Below the pieces are notes generated by a model. It saw only the letters and a program-made list of their open reading frames with translations, was not told the origin of the DNA and did not search any database. The position numbers and the translations under genes are program-made. Below are positions 6,264-12,485 of a stretch of DNA of 64,000 nt, in pieces. The stretch's first letter is position 1, and the number at the start of each line of letters is the position of its first letter. The stretch covers positions 248,001-312,000 of the forward strand of contig JAUHXU010000003.1 of assembly GCA_030426805.1 (NCBI GenBank), read 5' to 3'. The DNA comes from a bacterium (lineage in GTDB: Bacteria > Planctomycetota > JAFGQW01).

Positions 6264-7331
6264 CTACTCGATCACGCCCCGCTCGCGGAGGAAGTGCTCG
6301 AGCGCGAACAGCTTCGTCTTGAACGTGTTCGCGGAGCGAAACGCGTGCTCGAACACCGGCGGATAGTGCGCCATCAGCCCGCCGAAGAACGCCTGCATCC
6401 GCGCCGACCGCGCCTTCGCCGCGGCGTAGTAGGCACGCGCGGTGTCGAGATCCCCGGCCCGGACCGCGCCGTAGACGAGGACCTCGCAATAGAGGAACGA
6501 CGACGTCCCGCCGGGCGGGATCCGGATCCCGTCCTTCCACATCGCGTAGATCTTGGCCATCCGCTGCTCGGTGACCTGCGCCGGGGGCAACGGGCTGCGC
6601 GCGAACTCGCGGAGCACATCGTTGATCGCGTGGACGTGCCCGGCCTGCACGAGTTCGCCCCGACGGCGGGCGTAGAGCGCCTTCACGGCGGGGTCGAGCC
6701 CCGGCGTCGCCGCGAGCGCGTCGTAGACGTCGAGATCGTGGTCGGTGCGCTTGAAGAACGCGCGGCACAGCGTGAGCCCGGCCTTGGCCGCCGCGCCGCC
6801 GCTGGTGCGCGCGACGCGCTGCATCTGCGCGGCGGTGAGCGTCGCGAGCGCGAGGCTCTCGTCGAACGCGGCCTCGGAGCGCACGTCGACGGCCGCGACC
6901 CCCTGCCCCCACTCGTCGATGAAGAAGAACCACGGGAAGCTGTAGTAGCCGTCCTGGGTCGACAGGAACCGCTGATCCGGCAGGTCCGGCAGGCGCGCCT
7001 CGATGTTCAGGTACAACGGGAAGTCGCGCGCGCGGCGCAGCCACCACTCCGAGACGAGGGGGCCGTCCTCGAGCGCCTCGCTGACCGGGCACGCGCAGTA
7101 GCAGGGCGTCACGTAGGCGATCCCGAACCGCTTCGCCCGACGGATCGCGACGGTGGCCTCGTCGATCGTCCGAAGCCATGGGAGCTTCGTCGCGAACGGC
7201 TTGGCCAGCTTGCGCGCGTAGGCGGCCCGTCGCTGCTCGGGGGACGGTGGGGCCCAGCGCTGCGCCGGGACCAGCGGCGCATGACTCCACGCGACGAGGG
7301 CGACGATCAGCAGCTTCGCGAAACGATACAC
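6264..7331 (-). CDS. exported protein of unknown function with a CYCAC cysteine cluster
   Basis: The 355-aa reading starts at GTG 7331, which has a perfect AGGAGG about 10 bases upstream. Longer in-frame readings run into the divergent promoter region. The N-terminus looks like a signal peptide (FAKLLIVALVAWSHAP, ending near an Ala-Gln). The mature part begins with a helical Arg/Lys-rich region and then TPCYCACPVS, where three cysteines in five residues could bind metal or take part in redox chemistry. A segment with YYSFPWFFFIDEWG follows, then a mostly alpha-helical C-terminal half. I do not recognise the family. The adjacent strand carries a GT-C-like gene. Confidence 0.65.
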   Translation of the reverse strand: MYRFAKLLIVALVAWSHAPLVPAQRWAPPSPEQRRAAYARKLAKPFATKLPWLRTIDEATVAIRRAKRFGIAYVTPCYCACPVSEALEDGPLVSEWWLRRARDFPLYLNIEARLPDLPDQRFLSTQDGYYSFPWFFFIDEWGQGVAAVDVRSEAAFDESLALATLTAAQMQRVARTSGGAAAKAGLTLCRAFFKRTDHDLDVYDALAATPGLDPAVKALYARRRGELVQAGHVHAINDVLREFARSPLPPAQVTEQRMAKIYAMWKDGIRIPPGGTSSFLYCEVLVYGAVRAGDLDTARAYYAAAKARSARMQAFFGGLMAHYPPVFEHAFRSANTFKTKLFALEHFLRERGVIE

Positions 7332-7384
7332 GGCCGGGATACCTCCTGCCCCGATGATACCAGCGCGGCCGCCGGTCACTCGGC

Positions 7385-7413
7385 TTGACTTTCGGCCGGC
7401 ACTCGGATGGGAT
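7385..7413 (+). promoter_or_regulatory. weak putative promoter upstream of the second GT-C-like gene
   Basis: TTGACT at 7385-7390 is followed after 17 bases by TGGGAT at 7408-7413. If this is a promoter, the start point would be close to the GTG at 7420, giving a nearly leaderless message. The -10 match is poor, so this is tentative. Confidence 0.25.
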
Positions 7414-7419
7414 GAATAC

Positions 7420-9501
7420 GTGCATGCGGGAACCTCGACCACGTCCACGACCAGCCGACTCGACGCCTCGCTGCTTCTGACGCTCGCAGCCGGCGCGATC
7501 GCACTGCTGTGGATCGCCGGCCTGCCCGACCGGCCGGTGTCCGTGCTGTTCCCCGAGGAGCTCTACCAGGCGCAGGCCGCCCGCGACATCGCCGCCGGCT
7601 CGATCCCGCGCTACAACCGCGACGCCGCCGCCCGCGTCGAACCGCTCTACGCGGCCCTGCTCGCACCGGCACGCTGGATCGGCGGCGCCGACGGATTCCG
7701 GTGGTGGGCGCGGATCATCAACGTCGTGCTTCTGCTCGCGACGGTGTTCCCGGCGTATCGGCTCGCACGCTACGCGATCTCGCGCGGCCCGGCGATCGTG
7801 GTCGCGACCGCGGCGGTGCTCTGCCCGGGTGCGATCCTGCACCGCATCCTCGTCGCCGAAAACCTGCTGCTGCCGTTGCTGACCGCGACGACGCTCGCTG
7901 CGGTCGCGGTCGTCCGGCGGCCGCACGTCGGCCGTGCCCTCGTCGCCGGTGCGCTGCTCGGCGCGGTCGCGCTGACCGACGCGCACCTGATCCCGCTCGT
8001 GCCGGCCGTGCTCGGCGCACTTCTCGTGCTCGGCGGCGGCCGACGACCGGTCGCGACCGCGGCCGGCGCTGCCATCGTCGTCGCGCTCCCGTGGTACGGC
8101 GGCCGAGCGATCCTCGGCGACGCGACGGTCGGCACGGCGTCGCAAACACTCTTCGACGAGTTCGCGCGCACGGGGCTCAAGCCGATCGGCACCTATGGGT
8201 CATGGCTGCTCGACACCGGTGCGACCGCGATCGCCTCGGTGGGCGCCGTCGTCGCGGCGCTCGCGATCGGGCACTGGCTCGGCGCATTCTCGCGTTCGAC
8301 ATCGACGCGCCGCGCGACGGCAGGCCTGTCCGCGACGATCGTCGTGGGCGTCGTCGCGATCGCCGCGTTCTGGTCGGCGCAGTACGCCGAGCATCGCGGG
8401 GTTCTCGACGGTCGATCGCTCGCCGCGGTCGCACCGCTGTGGATCGTCGCGTTCGGCTCGGCGCTCGGAGCGCCGACGCGCCGCCCCGTCGCGACGGTCG
8501 TCGCCGCCCTCGGCGTCGCCGCGATCGTCTACGCGTTCGCGGACTCGCACACGCCGAACGCACTCGGCGACGTGACCGACTTCCCGGCCGCCACGCTGCT
8601 CGGGTGGTTGTGGTCGAGCGACCTGATTCCGGGCAACCCGACGCCGATCCGCTTCGTCGTGCTGACACTGCTACCACTCGCGCTGCTGCCGCTCGCGTTC
8701 CTCCGACGCCGCCTGCCCCGCCTCGTGCTGTTCGTCGCGCTCGCATGGCCGTGCGCCGGACTCGCCGCGGCCGCGTTCACGATGAACGACCTCCGTGCCC
8801 GCGACGACGCTCGGATCACGCCGCTGATGGCGTGGCTCGAGGAGCACGTCGAACCCGGCGACGCGATCGTCCATCACGCCCTCGACACCGACATCCCGTT
8901 TCAGACCGCGCTGCACTTCGACAACGAACTGTGCGCCGTCGCCCGCGACTTCGTGCCCACGGCGGACTCCGCGGTGCGGTTCGACGGTGCGACGGGCCGT
9001 TTCGTCGTGCCGACGTGCACCGGTCGCACACTGCTGCTGACCCAGTCGCTCCCGGGCTGGAGCCGCGCCCATTTCGCGAAGTTCTTCGACTTCCGACTCG
9101 TCGACGTGTCCGACGGCCTCGCCGGTCGCGGGTCGTGGTTCGGGCTCGCCCCGCCGCCGCTCCACGAGCCACGCTCGGATCAGGTCACCGCCGACCGGAT
9201 GTGCGAGCCGGACACGACGATTCGGTGGTCGGTCGAGTATCCGCACACGTACGCGATCGGCATCGCACTCGAGCACCCGGCCGACTCGCCGATCGACGGC
9301 CCGGTGACGGTGACGATCCGGAGCCCCAACGGCGGCGTGATCGAGCGTCGGATCGAGAAGGGTGCGACCGCCCGCCTCGACGCCGAGGTCCGGCTCTGGG
9401 CACCGGTCGTCCACGTGCGACTGCGATGCGACCGCTGGTTCGAGCGCGACGGCCGACGCCTGTCGCTGCGGATCACGGGCCTCTACCTCGAACGACGATA
9501 G
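7420..9501 (+). CDS. polytopic membrane protein, GT-C glycosyltransferase-like
   Basis: A 693-aa reading from GTG 7420 is preferred. An upstream ATG at 7354 is in frame, but it would place 22 extra residues across the putative promoter. About eleven to twelve hydrophobic segments occupy the first 480 residues, and a soluble domain of about 200 residues follows. The first loop holds LFPEELYQAQAARD, an acidic pair placed like the catalytic acids of PMT/ArnT-type GT-C enzymes. The gene at 38118-39662 has the same layout (LVDEELAQTSLARS), so the two are likely related. Probable role: transfer of sugar from a lipid carrier at the outer face of the membrane (inference). Its TAG stop overlaps the AGGAGG of the next gene, which suggests coupling. 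Confidence 0.65.
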   Translation: MHAGTSTTSTTSRLDASLLLTLAAGAIALLWIAGLPDRPVSVLFPEELYQAQAARDIAAGSIPRYNRDAAARVEPLYAALLAPARWIGGADGFRWWARIINVVLLLATVFPAYRLARYAISRGPAIVVATAAVLCPGAILHRILVAENLLLPLLTATTLAAVAVVRRPHVGRALVAGALLGAVALTDAHLIPLVPAVLGALLVLGGGRRPVATAAGAAIVVALPWYGGRAILGDATVGTASQTLFDEFARTGLKPIGTYGSWLLDTGATAIASVGAVVAALAIGHWLGAFSRSTSTRRATAGLSATIVVGVVAIAAFWSAQYAEHRGVLDGRSLAAVAPLWIVAFGSALGAPTRRPVATVVAALGVAAIVYAFADSHTPNALGDVTDFPAATLLGWLWSSDLIPGNPTPIRFVVLTLLPLALLPLAFLRRRLPRLVLFVALAWPCAGLAAAAFTMNDLRARDDARITPLMAWLEEHVEPGDAIVHHALDTDIPFQTALHFDNELCAVARDFVPTADSAVRFDGATGRFVVPTCTGRTLLLTQSLPGWSRAHFAKFFDFRLVDVSDGLAGRGSWFGLAPPPLHEPRSDQVTADRMCEPDTTIRWSVEYPHTYAIGIALEHPADSPIDGPVTVTIRSPNGGVIERRIEKGATARLDAEVRLWAPVVHVRLRCDRWFERDGRRLSLRITGLYLERR

Positions 9502-9511
9502 GAGGAAGCCG

Positions 9512-10852
9512 ATGGGACGCGTGCTCCTGCGGATCGTGTGTGGACTCGTGCTGCTCGGCGCTCCCGTTTCGGCCGACGAGATTCCGGTCGGTCGCGGCGT
9601 GGGCGAGCGCTTCCCGGCGGTGCGACTCCCCGCGCTCGCGAACGCTCGGATGACGTCACTCGCGTCGTTTCGCGGGCGCAAGGTCCTCCTGTTCGAGTTC
9701 GCGTCGTGGTGAGTGGGCTGCCGGCGCAAGGTGCCCGTGTGGTACCGCCTCGCGAAGCCGTTCGTCGAACGCGGTGAGCTCGCGCTCGTCGGGATCGTGC
9801 AAGATCAACACCCCGACCGCGCGGCGCTGCTCCGTCAGTGGAAGGGCCTCGATTTCCCGCTCCTCGTCGACGCGCTGAACACGACCGGGATGAAGGTCGT
9901 CCCGTTGCACTACCTGATCGACGAGCACGGGGTCGTCCGAGGCACGCGCATCGACATCGACGCGCTGACCACCTTCGTCGACACCGCACCGCTCGGAACG
10001 CGCCCGCCGGAGGACGCCGCGCCGCTGGCGGCCGATCCGACGCGCGATCCGATCGCGTTCGGCGACGCCCGCTTTCACCGCGCCGGCCCGGGCGATCTCG
10101 ACGCGGCGATCGACGCGTTTCGTGCCGCGGTCGCGCGCGATCCCGCCGACGGCGCGGCGCAGTTCCGGCTCGGCGTCGCGCTTCGGAGACGCTTCGAGTC
10201 CGCGGATCGTCGGCCGGGCGACTTCGCCGATGCCGCGCGGGCGTGGACCGCGTCGCGCGTGTCCGACCCGGGACACTACATCCGACTGCGACGGCTCCAG
10301 CAATACGGTCCGCGGATGACGAAGCCATACGACTTCTTCGGGTGGGTCGCGACCGCACGCGAGGCGATCATCGCCCGCGGCGACACGCCGGTGCACGTCG
10401 CGGTCGAACCGATCGGCGCCGAGTTGGGGCTGCCCGCGAAGTCGCTCGACGTGCGCGACACCCCACCACCGACCGATCTCGACCGTCACGCGCGCCGACC
10501 GGACGCGCTCGAGGTCGAGGCCGCGGTGATCGCACCGACCTTCGCGTCGCCCGGACGCGCGTTGCAACTGCACGTGCACGTCTGGCGGCGCGACGACAGC
10601 TCCCGCACGCCGCCGCGTGTGTGCATCACGCTCCCCGCGGGCTGGCGTGCCGACCGGACGGTTCGCGACACCGGCCCGTCGGGCATCGGCGGCGGCTGGG
10701 TCGCCGAGTTCGCGGTCGGCATTCCGGCGAGCGAGCGGCCCGGCGAGCGCGACGCAACCGTCACGGTCCTCGCGGGAGGCGACGGCGCCGCGCGCATTCG
10801 CGCCGACCGGACGGTCACGATCGAGGTGCGTGAGCGCCCCCGTCGGCGCTGA
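9512..10852 (+). CDS. exported redoxin-domain protein with in-frame UGA in the active site (probable selenoprotein)
   Basis: Reading from ATG 9512 (AGGAGG at 9500-9505) gives a signal peptide and then a thioredoxin-fold domain. The codons after LLFEFASW are TGA, GTG, GGC, TGC, and the frame stays open for 380 more codons. Decoded as selenocysteine, residue 67 makes W-U-V-G-C-R, with the resolving Cys70 exactly where a CxxC thioredoxin-like motif (usually WCxxCR) has its second cysteine. The fold continues as expected with HYLIDEHGVVRG (about 134-145). The protein is then 446 aa, with a helical TPR-like region (about 185-270) and a C-terminal beta-rich domain. The alternatives are a recent nonsense mutation or a sequencing error. 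No selA, selB, selD or tRNA-Sec lies in the window. Confidence 0.75.
9710..9712 (+). other. candidate UGA selenocysteine recoding site
   Basis: This in-frame TGA replaces the first cysteine of a W-C-x-x-C motif. Downstream a short hairpin can be drawn, GGCGC (9723-9727) with GTGCC (9731-9735) around an AAG loop, or GGGC (9715-9718) with GCCC (9733-9736) around a loop that ends in GGT. Neither is a convincing bacterial SECIS by eye, but such elements vary widely outside enterobacteria. Confidence 0.6.
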
Positions 10853-10946: not shown

Positions 10947-12485
10947 ATGCCGTCCCGTATCTTGCTGTTCGCCCTCGCCCTCGCCGGGTGCGCCGCGACC
11001 GCGGCCGCGCAACCGGCGCTACCGAAAGACTTCGTGCACGACGTCCTGGTGACAAACCTCGCGCGACCGACGGGGTTTACGACGTTGCCGGATGGTCGAC
11101 ACCTGATCATCGAACAACGCACGGCGCACGTGAAGGTGCTCGCGGCCGGTGTCGTCGCGACGATCGCGACGATCCCGAACGTGCGCGCCGACACGTCGGA
11201 ACGCGGGCTGCTCGGCGTCGAGGTCGATCCGAAGTGGCCGACGCGGCCGTACGTCTATCTCTATTACACGTCGAGCAAGTCCCCGACGGCGCATCTGATT
11301 CGAATGACCGCGACGGGCGACGTCGCGAATCCCACGAGCACAAACCTGATGCTCGTCAGTCCCTACTGCATCATCGACGACATCCCGTCGGCGACGCAGA
11401 ACCACAAAGGGGGCACCGTGCGCTTCGGCCCGGGCGGGATGCTCTTCCTCAGCCTCGGCGACGACGGCACGCCCTGCACCGCGCAATCGATCGACGATCT
11501 GCGCGGCTGCATCCTGCGACTCGACGTGTCGAAACTCCCGACGACCGGCACCGGACCGGCGCCGAAATCGTTGCTCGTGCCGCCGGAAAACCCGTTCCGC
11601 GGCCCGTCCGTCAACGCACGGCTCACGTTCGCCTACGGCTTGCGAAACCCGTTCCGCTTCAACGTCGACCCGAAGACCGGGCGGCTCTACATCGCCGATG
11701 TCGGCGAAGCGCTGATGGAGGAGTTCGACGAAGCCGAAGGCGGTGAGAACTTCGGATGGCCGTGGCTCGAAGGCACGGTCGCCGGGCCGGGATGTGGGCC
11801 GAACCCACCGAAGACGACGCCCCCGCTCGCGACGCTGTTGCGCACCGAGGGGCAGTCCGTGATCGCGTTCGGGCTCTATCGAAACCGCACCGGTGCGCCG
11901 CACAACTTCGGCCTGGCCTACGAGGGTTGCGCGTTCTACGGCGACTTCTACACCGGCTTGGTTCGCCGACTCCGCCACGACGGCAACGGCTGGATCGCCG
12001 CGCCCCAGGTGCCCGGTCAGCCGACCGCCGCCGACTGGTGCACCGGCAGCCCGTTCGTCTCGCAGGCCGACATCGGCGCCGACGGCGCACTCTACCTGAC
12101 GAACCTCGTCGGCGGATCGATGCACCGCATCCGCTACGTGCCGCGTCTGCCTCGTTTCACGTCGCCGACGATCGCGACGAGCGGAACGCGGCATGCGCTG
12201 ACGCTCGAGCGCGACCCCGGGGACCTCGCGATCTTCTACGTCGCGCTCGGCGCCGACGCCCCACGCCCGGTCGAACGGCACTTCGGCATGCTGGAGCTGG
12301 GGGAACGCGGCTTCTCGTTCGCGGGCATGCGCCTCGACACGCACGGCCGGGGGACGATCACGCTGCCACCGGTGCCGCACGAACTCGTCGGCCACACGGT
12401 GCACTTCCAGGCCGTCGTCGTGTCGGGACCGGACGCGTTCATCTCGCCGCGACACGCGGTGACGATCGAATACCCGCGACGCTGA
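10947..12485 (+). CDS. exported PQQ-type glucose/sorbosone dehydrogenase family protein
   Basis: ATG 10947 follows AGGAGG by about 7 bases and opens a 512-aa protein. The N-terminus is a signal peptide that could be lipoprotein-type (LALAGC, Cys15). The six-bladed propeller of the soluble aldose sugar dehydrogenase family is evident from RPTGFTTLPDG, the strongly conserved SERGLLGVEVDP, HKGGTVRFGPGGMLFLSLGD, YGLRNPFRFNVDP and GGENFGWPWLEG. In the family these loops bind PQQ and calcium and the enzyme oxidises sugars in the periplasm. Many members are uncharacterised and lack proven PQQ binding. The last 110 residues form an extra beta domain. It lies just downstream of the redoxin gene on the same strand. 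Confidence 0.85.
   Translation: MPSRILLFALALAGCAATAAAQPALPKDFVHDVLVTNLARPTGFTTLPDGRHLIIEQRTAHVKVLAAGVVATIATIPNVRADTSERGLLGVEVDPKWPTRPYVYLYYTSSKSPTAHLIRMTATGDVANPTSTNLMLVSPYCIIDDIPSATQNHKGGTVRFGPGGMLFLSLGDDGTPCTAQSIDDLRGCILRLDVSKLPTTGTGPAPKSLLVPPENPFRGPSVNARLTFAYGLRNPFRFNVDPKTGRLYIADVGEALMEEFDEAEGGENFGWPWLEGTVAGPGCGPNPPKTTPPLATLLRTEGQSVIAFGLYRNRTGAPHNFGLAYEGCAFYGDFYTGLVRRLRHDGNGWIAAPQVPGQPTAADWCTGSPFVSQADIGADGALYLTNLVGGSMHRIRYVPRLPRFTSPTIATSGTRHALTLERDPGDLAIFYVALGADAPRPVERHFGMLELGERGFSFAGMRLDTHGRGTITLPPVPHELVGHTVHFQAVVVSGPDAFISPRHAVTIEYPRR

Follow-up and report, generated by a model that had tools for sequence, protein, structure and literature searches.

A probable selenoprotein combining a U-x-x-C thioredoxin fold and a DsbD alpha-related domain in a likely member of the Planctomycetota

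Results

Gene and flanking open reading frames

The window analysed here is a stretch of 64,000 nucleotides, C6:248001-312000 of a 5.58-Mb, 6-contig assembly that is 91% complete. A search for 16S in this genome gave no match, and PLA46, a 16S signature known as specific to planctomycetes, was present in 3 of 13 relatives, so that Planctomycetota is the likely phylum. The gene of interest lies on the forward strand at 9512..10852, as do all of its features given below, and consists of 66 codons from ATG 9512, a TGA at 9710-9712, 379 sense codons and a TGA stop at 10850-10852. From direct reading of the frame and from the alignment of orthologues it is predicted to be a selenoprotein gene, encoding 446 residues with selenocysteine (Sec, U) at position 67. 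The internal TGA is found in the context FEFASW-U-VGCRRKVPVW, and an earlier note on this DNA, which placed it in frame within W-TGA-V-G-C-R-R, is borne out by direct reading, as is its count of 66 open codons before the TGA, but the 380 codons it gave thereafter include the final stop and should read 379. The TGC at 9719..9721 encodes Cys70, the partner in the putative U67-V-G-C70 redox motif, and is invariant in 17 of 17 aligned orthologues. GC3 is similar on either side of the TGA (0.83 before, 0.88 after). A gene caller taking the TGA as a stop would yield an ORF of 379 aa from GTG 9713, which is present in the ORF list, and would split the gene, as had been foreseen.

A Shine-Dalgarno-like element, GGAGGAAG, was read directly from the sequence at 9501..9508 and includes GGAGG at 9501-9505. 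It starts on the last base of the stop codon of the upstream ORF 7354-9501, which suggests that the gene is translationally coupled to this ORF. The start of the latter, which has a weak PMT_2 match, is overlapped by a 394-aa ORF on the minus strand (6264-7448) that contains a CYCACP motif and is hydrophobic over a stretch close to its start; no match to this ORF was found in Pfam or NCBIfam. Directly downstream lies 10947-12485, which is predicted to encode a glucose/sorbosone dehydrogenase (PF07995) and whose start looks like a signal sequence.

Domain structure

Judged by eye from its basic start and hydrophobic core, the N-terminus (9512..9580) is probably a signal peptide, MGRVLLRIVCGLVLLGAPVSADE, and a secreted product is predicted. 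The AlphaFold2 model, with a pLDDT of 84 overall and of about 90 in the thioredoxin domain, places an N-terminal helix (residues 2-15, of low confidence) before a thioredoxin fold, a TPR-like helical middle and a C-terminal β-sandwich. The thioredoxin-fold domain is ResA/TlpA-like and comprises approximately residues 31-160 (9602..9991). Its residues 30-143 are matched by both Pfam AhpC-TSA (PF00578; 37.2 bits against a cut-off of 26, E 3e-9) and Redoxin (PF08534; 34.2 bits against 26.6), and both matches span the TGA above their gathering scores. Foldseek furthermore relates the domain to ResA with a probability of 1.00 and also to DsbE-type structures, and its profile matches are likewise ResA/TlpA. 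The middle region, approximately residues 178-293 (10043..10390), is considered TPR-like from TPR matches below cut-off and from the helices of the model, and it contains the conserved motifs Y-I-x-x-R-R-x-x-Q-x-G and KPY.

The C-terminal β-sandwich, approximately residues 334-440 (10511..10831), is by profile comparison homologous to the alpha (N-terminal) domain of DsbD. The family profile of this domain matches same-phylum DsbD_N in hhalign at 97.1% (E 6e-11, score 63.6), whereas none of 60 column-shuffled controls scored above 15.8 and the other two regions of the protein reached at most 14.4. Single sequences of the domain fall below the Pfam cut-off for PF11412, and a direct Foldseek search mostly retrieves generic β-sandwiches, with DsbD alpha at ranks 44 and 46; the domain of an orthologue folded alone gave a pLDDT of 95.8. 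Both cysteines of the DsbD alpha-like pair can be aligned; 14 of 17 orthologues retain them, and the window protein has neither.

Homologues and conservation of the TGA

Among 148 other genomes of the same phylum we found 18 orthologues (E<1e-30) besides the window protein, and each has one TGA, situated in the active-site column. Their active-site motif is FASWU(A/V)GCR, most having U-A-G-C as opposed to U-V-G-C in the present protein. A profile search of 392 same-phylum genomes gave matches at E<=1e-25 in 42, including a relative with a shorter, UGC motif (in genome G057), and every match that covers the active site has the TGA. The column was read directly in 30 fetched loci, which together with the first set amount to 33 distinct sequences, and codon 67 (9710..9712) is TGA in 33 of 33; in about 8 of the approximately 40 members the sole evidence for the TGA is the number of in-match stops given by the search tool. 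A Cys form at the Sec column was found in none of the approximately 40 close members from the 392 genomes, and as the query profile had Cys at this column, Cys forms were as findable as TGA forms. The homologue alignment at residue 67, which the note had proposed as a check, thus has TGA and no close homologue with TGC or TGT. More distant ResA-like proteins with Cys at the Sec column do exist; a single-protein scan of genome contigs retrieved only a distant Cys-type match from Phycisphaerales, and a search of a plasmid collection only distant TlpA-type matches.

Conservation across 17 orthologues extends to both sides of U67, with F63-W66, G69-R71, P75, W77, Q97 and H100 all invariant, and far beyond the TGA, where R260, R261, K271-Y273 (the KPY motif), W278 and G425 are invariant as well. 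The orthologues accordingly do not end before the motif, an outcome that the note had named as contrary to its reading, but are conserved downstream of it. From the GC3 values, the Pfam match across the codon and the conservation of the orthologue column we can conclude that the open frame around the TGA at 9710-9712 is more than chance.

SECIS-type hairpin

Downstream of the TGA the alignment of the orthologues is free of gaps, and when all column pairs were ranked in the set of 19 sequences, the top three covarying pairs fell in one helix. RNAalifold gives the same helix, in which columns 21-26 are paired to 32-37 and a loop of 5 nt lies between them. In the window this corresponds to a SECIS-type hairpin at 9730..9746, with a 6-bp stem (9730-9735/9741-9746) and the apical loop CGUGU (9736-9740), which starts 17 nt after the UGA and has its loop from 23 nt. 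In the 19 sequences the helix is 98.2% paired and has 12 compensatory cells, and in the 33 sequences 97.5% of cells are paired with 15 double-sided changes; the covariation score of the latter set is 0.332, against 0.119 in shuffles (0 of 500 as high) and at most 0.149 in slid controls. The paired codons include GTG (Val)/CAC (His), CTG (Leu)/CAG (Gln) and ATA (Ile)/TAT (Tyr), and also GTT (Val)/AAC (Asn), GTC (Val)/GAC (Asp) and GTA (Val)/TAC or TAT (Tyr). Since the compensatory changes thus cut across codons, the third base of the Val codon tracks the first base of a later one, and this is not explained by selection on the protein alone.

Single-sequence folding of the SECIS region in the window gave a z of about 0, no stabler than shuffles, and some folding windows favour a structure other than the hairpin, which is therefore shown by comparative analysis only. 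The bSECIS model, as described in PMC13188914, has a stem of 4-16 bp, a loop of 3-9 nt located 16-37 nt from the UGA and a G within the first two positions of the small loop. The hairpin agrees with this description, its second loop base being G in 33 of 33 sequences, and a bacterial SECIS downstream of the UGA, where the note had suggested searching, is in this sense present.

Selenocysteine machinery

A search for selA, selB, selD and tRNA-Sec(TCA), likewise proposed in the note, retrieved all of them from the same assembly. selA is found at C6:659215-660558 (482 bits against a cut-off of 268) and lies 68 nt from a tRNA-Sec with anticodon TCA (C6:660627-660719; 77 bits against 47), while selB (C5:854784-856661; 394 bits against 242) lies 35 nt from selD (C5:853822-854748; 368 bits against 125). 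selD itself has one in-frame TGA, reading SCAG-U-AGK, and would hence be truncated by a gene caller taking TGA as stop. In addition, a second thioredoxin-like gene on the minus strand at C3:575009-575218 has an in-frame TGA within FAHW-U-TPCR and is probably another selenoprotein of this genome. With the three genes, the tRNA-Sec and the TGA codons in selD and in this second gene, Sec decoding in this genome is well founded.

Within the phylum, selA exceeds the curated cut-off in 106 of 149 genomes, the present one included (about 70%), and selenocysteine use looks common. It is present in 17 of the 18 orthologue-bearing genomes and in 88 of 130 others (Fisher p=0.013), and the exception, G081, in which no selA was found, has a fragmented assembly. 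This co-occurrence lends weak support to the Sec reading, selA being widespread in the phylum in any case.

Discussion

A TGA is just one base away from TGC and TGT and the gene is a single copy in one assembly, which might invite the explanation that a nonsense mutation or sequencing error has struck the attacking cysteine and that we are dealing with a pseudogene or with two genes. However, 33 distinct sequences, drawn from many families of the phylum, have the same TGA, so that an identical error would be required in every assembly, and the conservation of the protein past the TGA as well as the covarying hairpin are in poor agreement with either a pseudogene or an error. Pseudogene and sequencing error are in fact ruled out by the TGA-bearing homologues and the downstream conservation, and we consider the probability of this explanation as a whole to be negligible. 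That the UGA is decoded otherwise, by recoding to tryptophan or cysteine or by plain read-through, is made very improbable by the facts that tRNA-Sec(TCA), selA, selB and selD are all in the genome, that this gene, like many of its orthologues, also has TGA as its normal terminator, that the hairpin matches the bacterial SECIS model and that the TGA sits at the column of the redox-active cysteine. An alternative code can be rejected. The UGA at 9710-9712 thus almost certainly encodes selenocysteine, judging from sequence comparison, and the gene is almost certainly a selenoprotein gene. The note had put this forward as an inference, which now gains support from the machinery, the TGA in 33 relatives and the covarying hairpin; a genome devoid of selenocysteine machinery, which it had held to be incompatible with this reading, is not what was seen, the full set being present in the assembly.

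The selenoprotein might instead be a peroxidase of the peroxiredoxin type, as could be suspected from AhpC-TSA being its top Pfam family (E 3e-9) with Redoxin second. The motif W-U-x-x-C-R is however that of thioredoxin-like reductases and not the peroxiredoxin T-x-x-C/U, the Sec peroxiredoxin motif being TxxU as given in PMC13188914, and furthermore the best matches among solved structures are ResA, DsbE and similar proteins, and the fusion to a DsbD alpha-like domain is likewise at odds with such a function. A peroxidase therefore seems unlikely, and a role as periplasmic thiol-disulfide reductase appears probable from the sequence; it is in the same manner that we infer secretion, the direction of electron flow and the substrates.

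For the reductase, we envisage that the SelB/tRNA-Sec system reads the UGA at 9710-9712 as Sec, directed by the hairpin 17 nt downstream, and that in the ResA/TlpA-like thioredoxin domain Sec67 would attack and Cys70 resolve. Electrons would then pass between the Sec-x-x-Cys pair and protein disulfides or comparable oxidised substrates in the periplasm, the enzyme probably acting as a reductase. By way of its own Cys pair, the DsbD alpha-like domain fused in most members may donate or accept electrons for the Sec centre. The present copy has lost these cysteines and would depend on a separate partner, for instance the DsbD of the same genome. A single DsbD-type transporter is encoded there, at C3:479875-481464; it has two DsbD_N domains ahead of its membrane domain and is a possible electron source. 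Gene context does not point to a substrate, since in the 1.5-kb flanks no neighbour proved to be conserved; the flanking-ORF clusters stemmed mostly from frames overlapping the gene itself or from close relatives.

Thioredoxin-fold selenoproteins with a UxxC motif are well known. ResA, TlpA and DsbE (CcmG), whose fold is shared by residues 30-160, have Cys-x-x-Cys and are not known to have the two other domains. The C-terminal domain resembles DsbD alpha (PF11412) in its homology and in both cysteines being aligned in most members, but there is no fused membrane domain and the Cys pair is missing in this copy. A 2026 inventory lists a 'Redoxin family protein' (PF08534, UxxC), with accessions HEU0032618.1 and MBA3499694.1, and a 'Prx-like thiol:disulfide oxidoreductase' (PF00578, UxxC) (PMC13188914), and by Pfam the present protein would be filed with these two entries, since it matches both families and has U-x-x-C; compared by description only, it differs from them as described there in its TPR-like middle and DsbD alpha-like C-terminus. 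No description of the combined UxxC, TPR-like and DsbD alpha-like architecture, apparently Sec-only, was found in the literature. A text search for the FASWU motif was uninformative, its top-ranked matches lacking the motif.

Tentatively, and with somewhat less than even confidence, we suggest that the orthologues constitute a secreted, Sec-only family in which fusion of a Sec thioredoxin and a DsbD alpha-like domain makes a self-contained relay, in which Cys apparently cannot replace Sec, and which tends to escape searches for Cys/TGA pairs; 'Sec-only' here holds within the one phylum sampled. Cys homologues exist for nearly all selenoproteins according to PMC13188914, and the deep-Sep method may miss families without them (PMC12013277), so that a family in which no Cys forms were found is easily missed by methods relying on Cys homologues. 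Annotation that takes TGA as stop breaks this gene and probably also its relatives in the phylum, and as about 70% of the sampled genomes have selA, the number of selenoproteins in this group may be underestimated. That approximately 40 members include no Cys version bears on why some enzymes keep selenocysteine, and the DsbD alpha-like fusion suggests a periplasmic seleno-reductase relay.

None of the NCBIfam models reaches its cut-off with this protein; the closest for all 17 members is NF041054, 'ResA-like WAxxUGC motif-containing protein' (WAxxUGC_long; 47.6 bits against 300), which has a homologous thioredoxin domain and also Sec, but U-G-C in place of U-x-x-C. In a tree of the thioredoxin domain the U-G-C and U-x-x-C groups fall on one side with the Cys types apart (98/92), although the joining of the two groups is uncertain owing to long branches. 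Three related selenoproteins (L041, L042 and L043) read WASW-U-G-C-R, in which Sec and Cys are one residue closer together, and group with the UxxC family and not with the Cys types. Finally, a ResA-like gene with WASW-TGA-GPCR in another genome of the phylum (G004, locus L051) is probably a classic ResA/TlpA protein in its Sec form.
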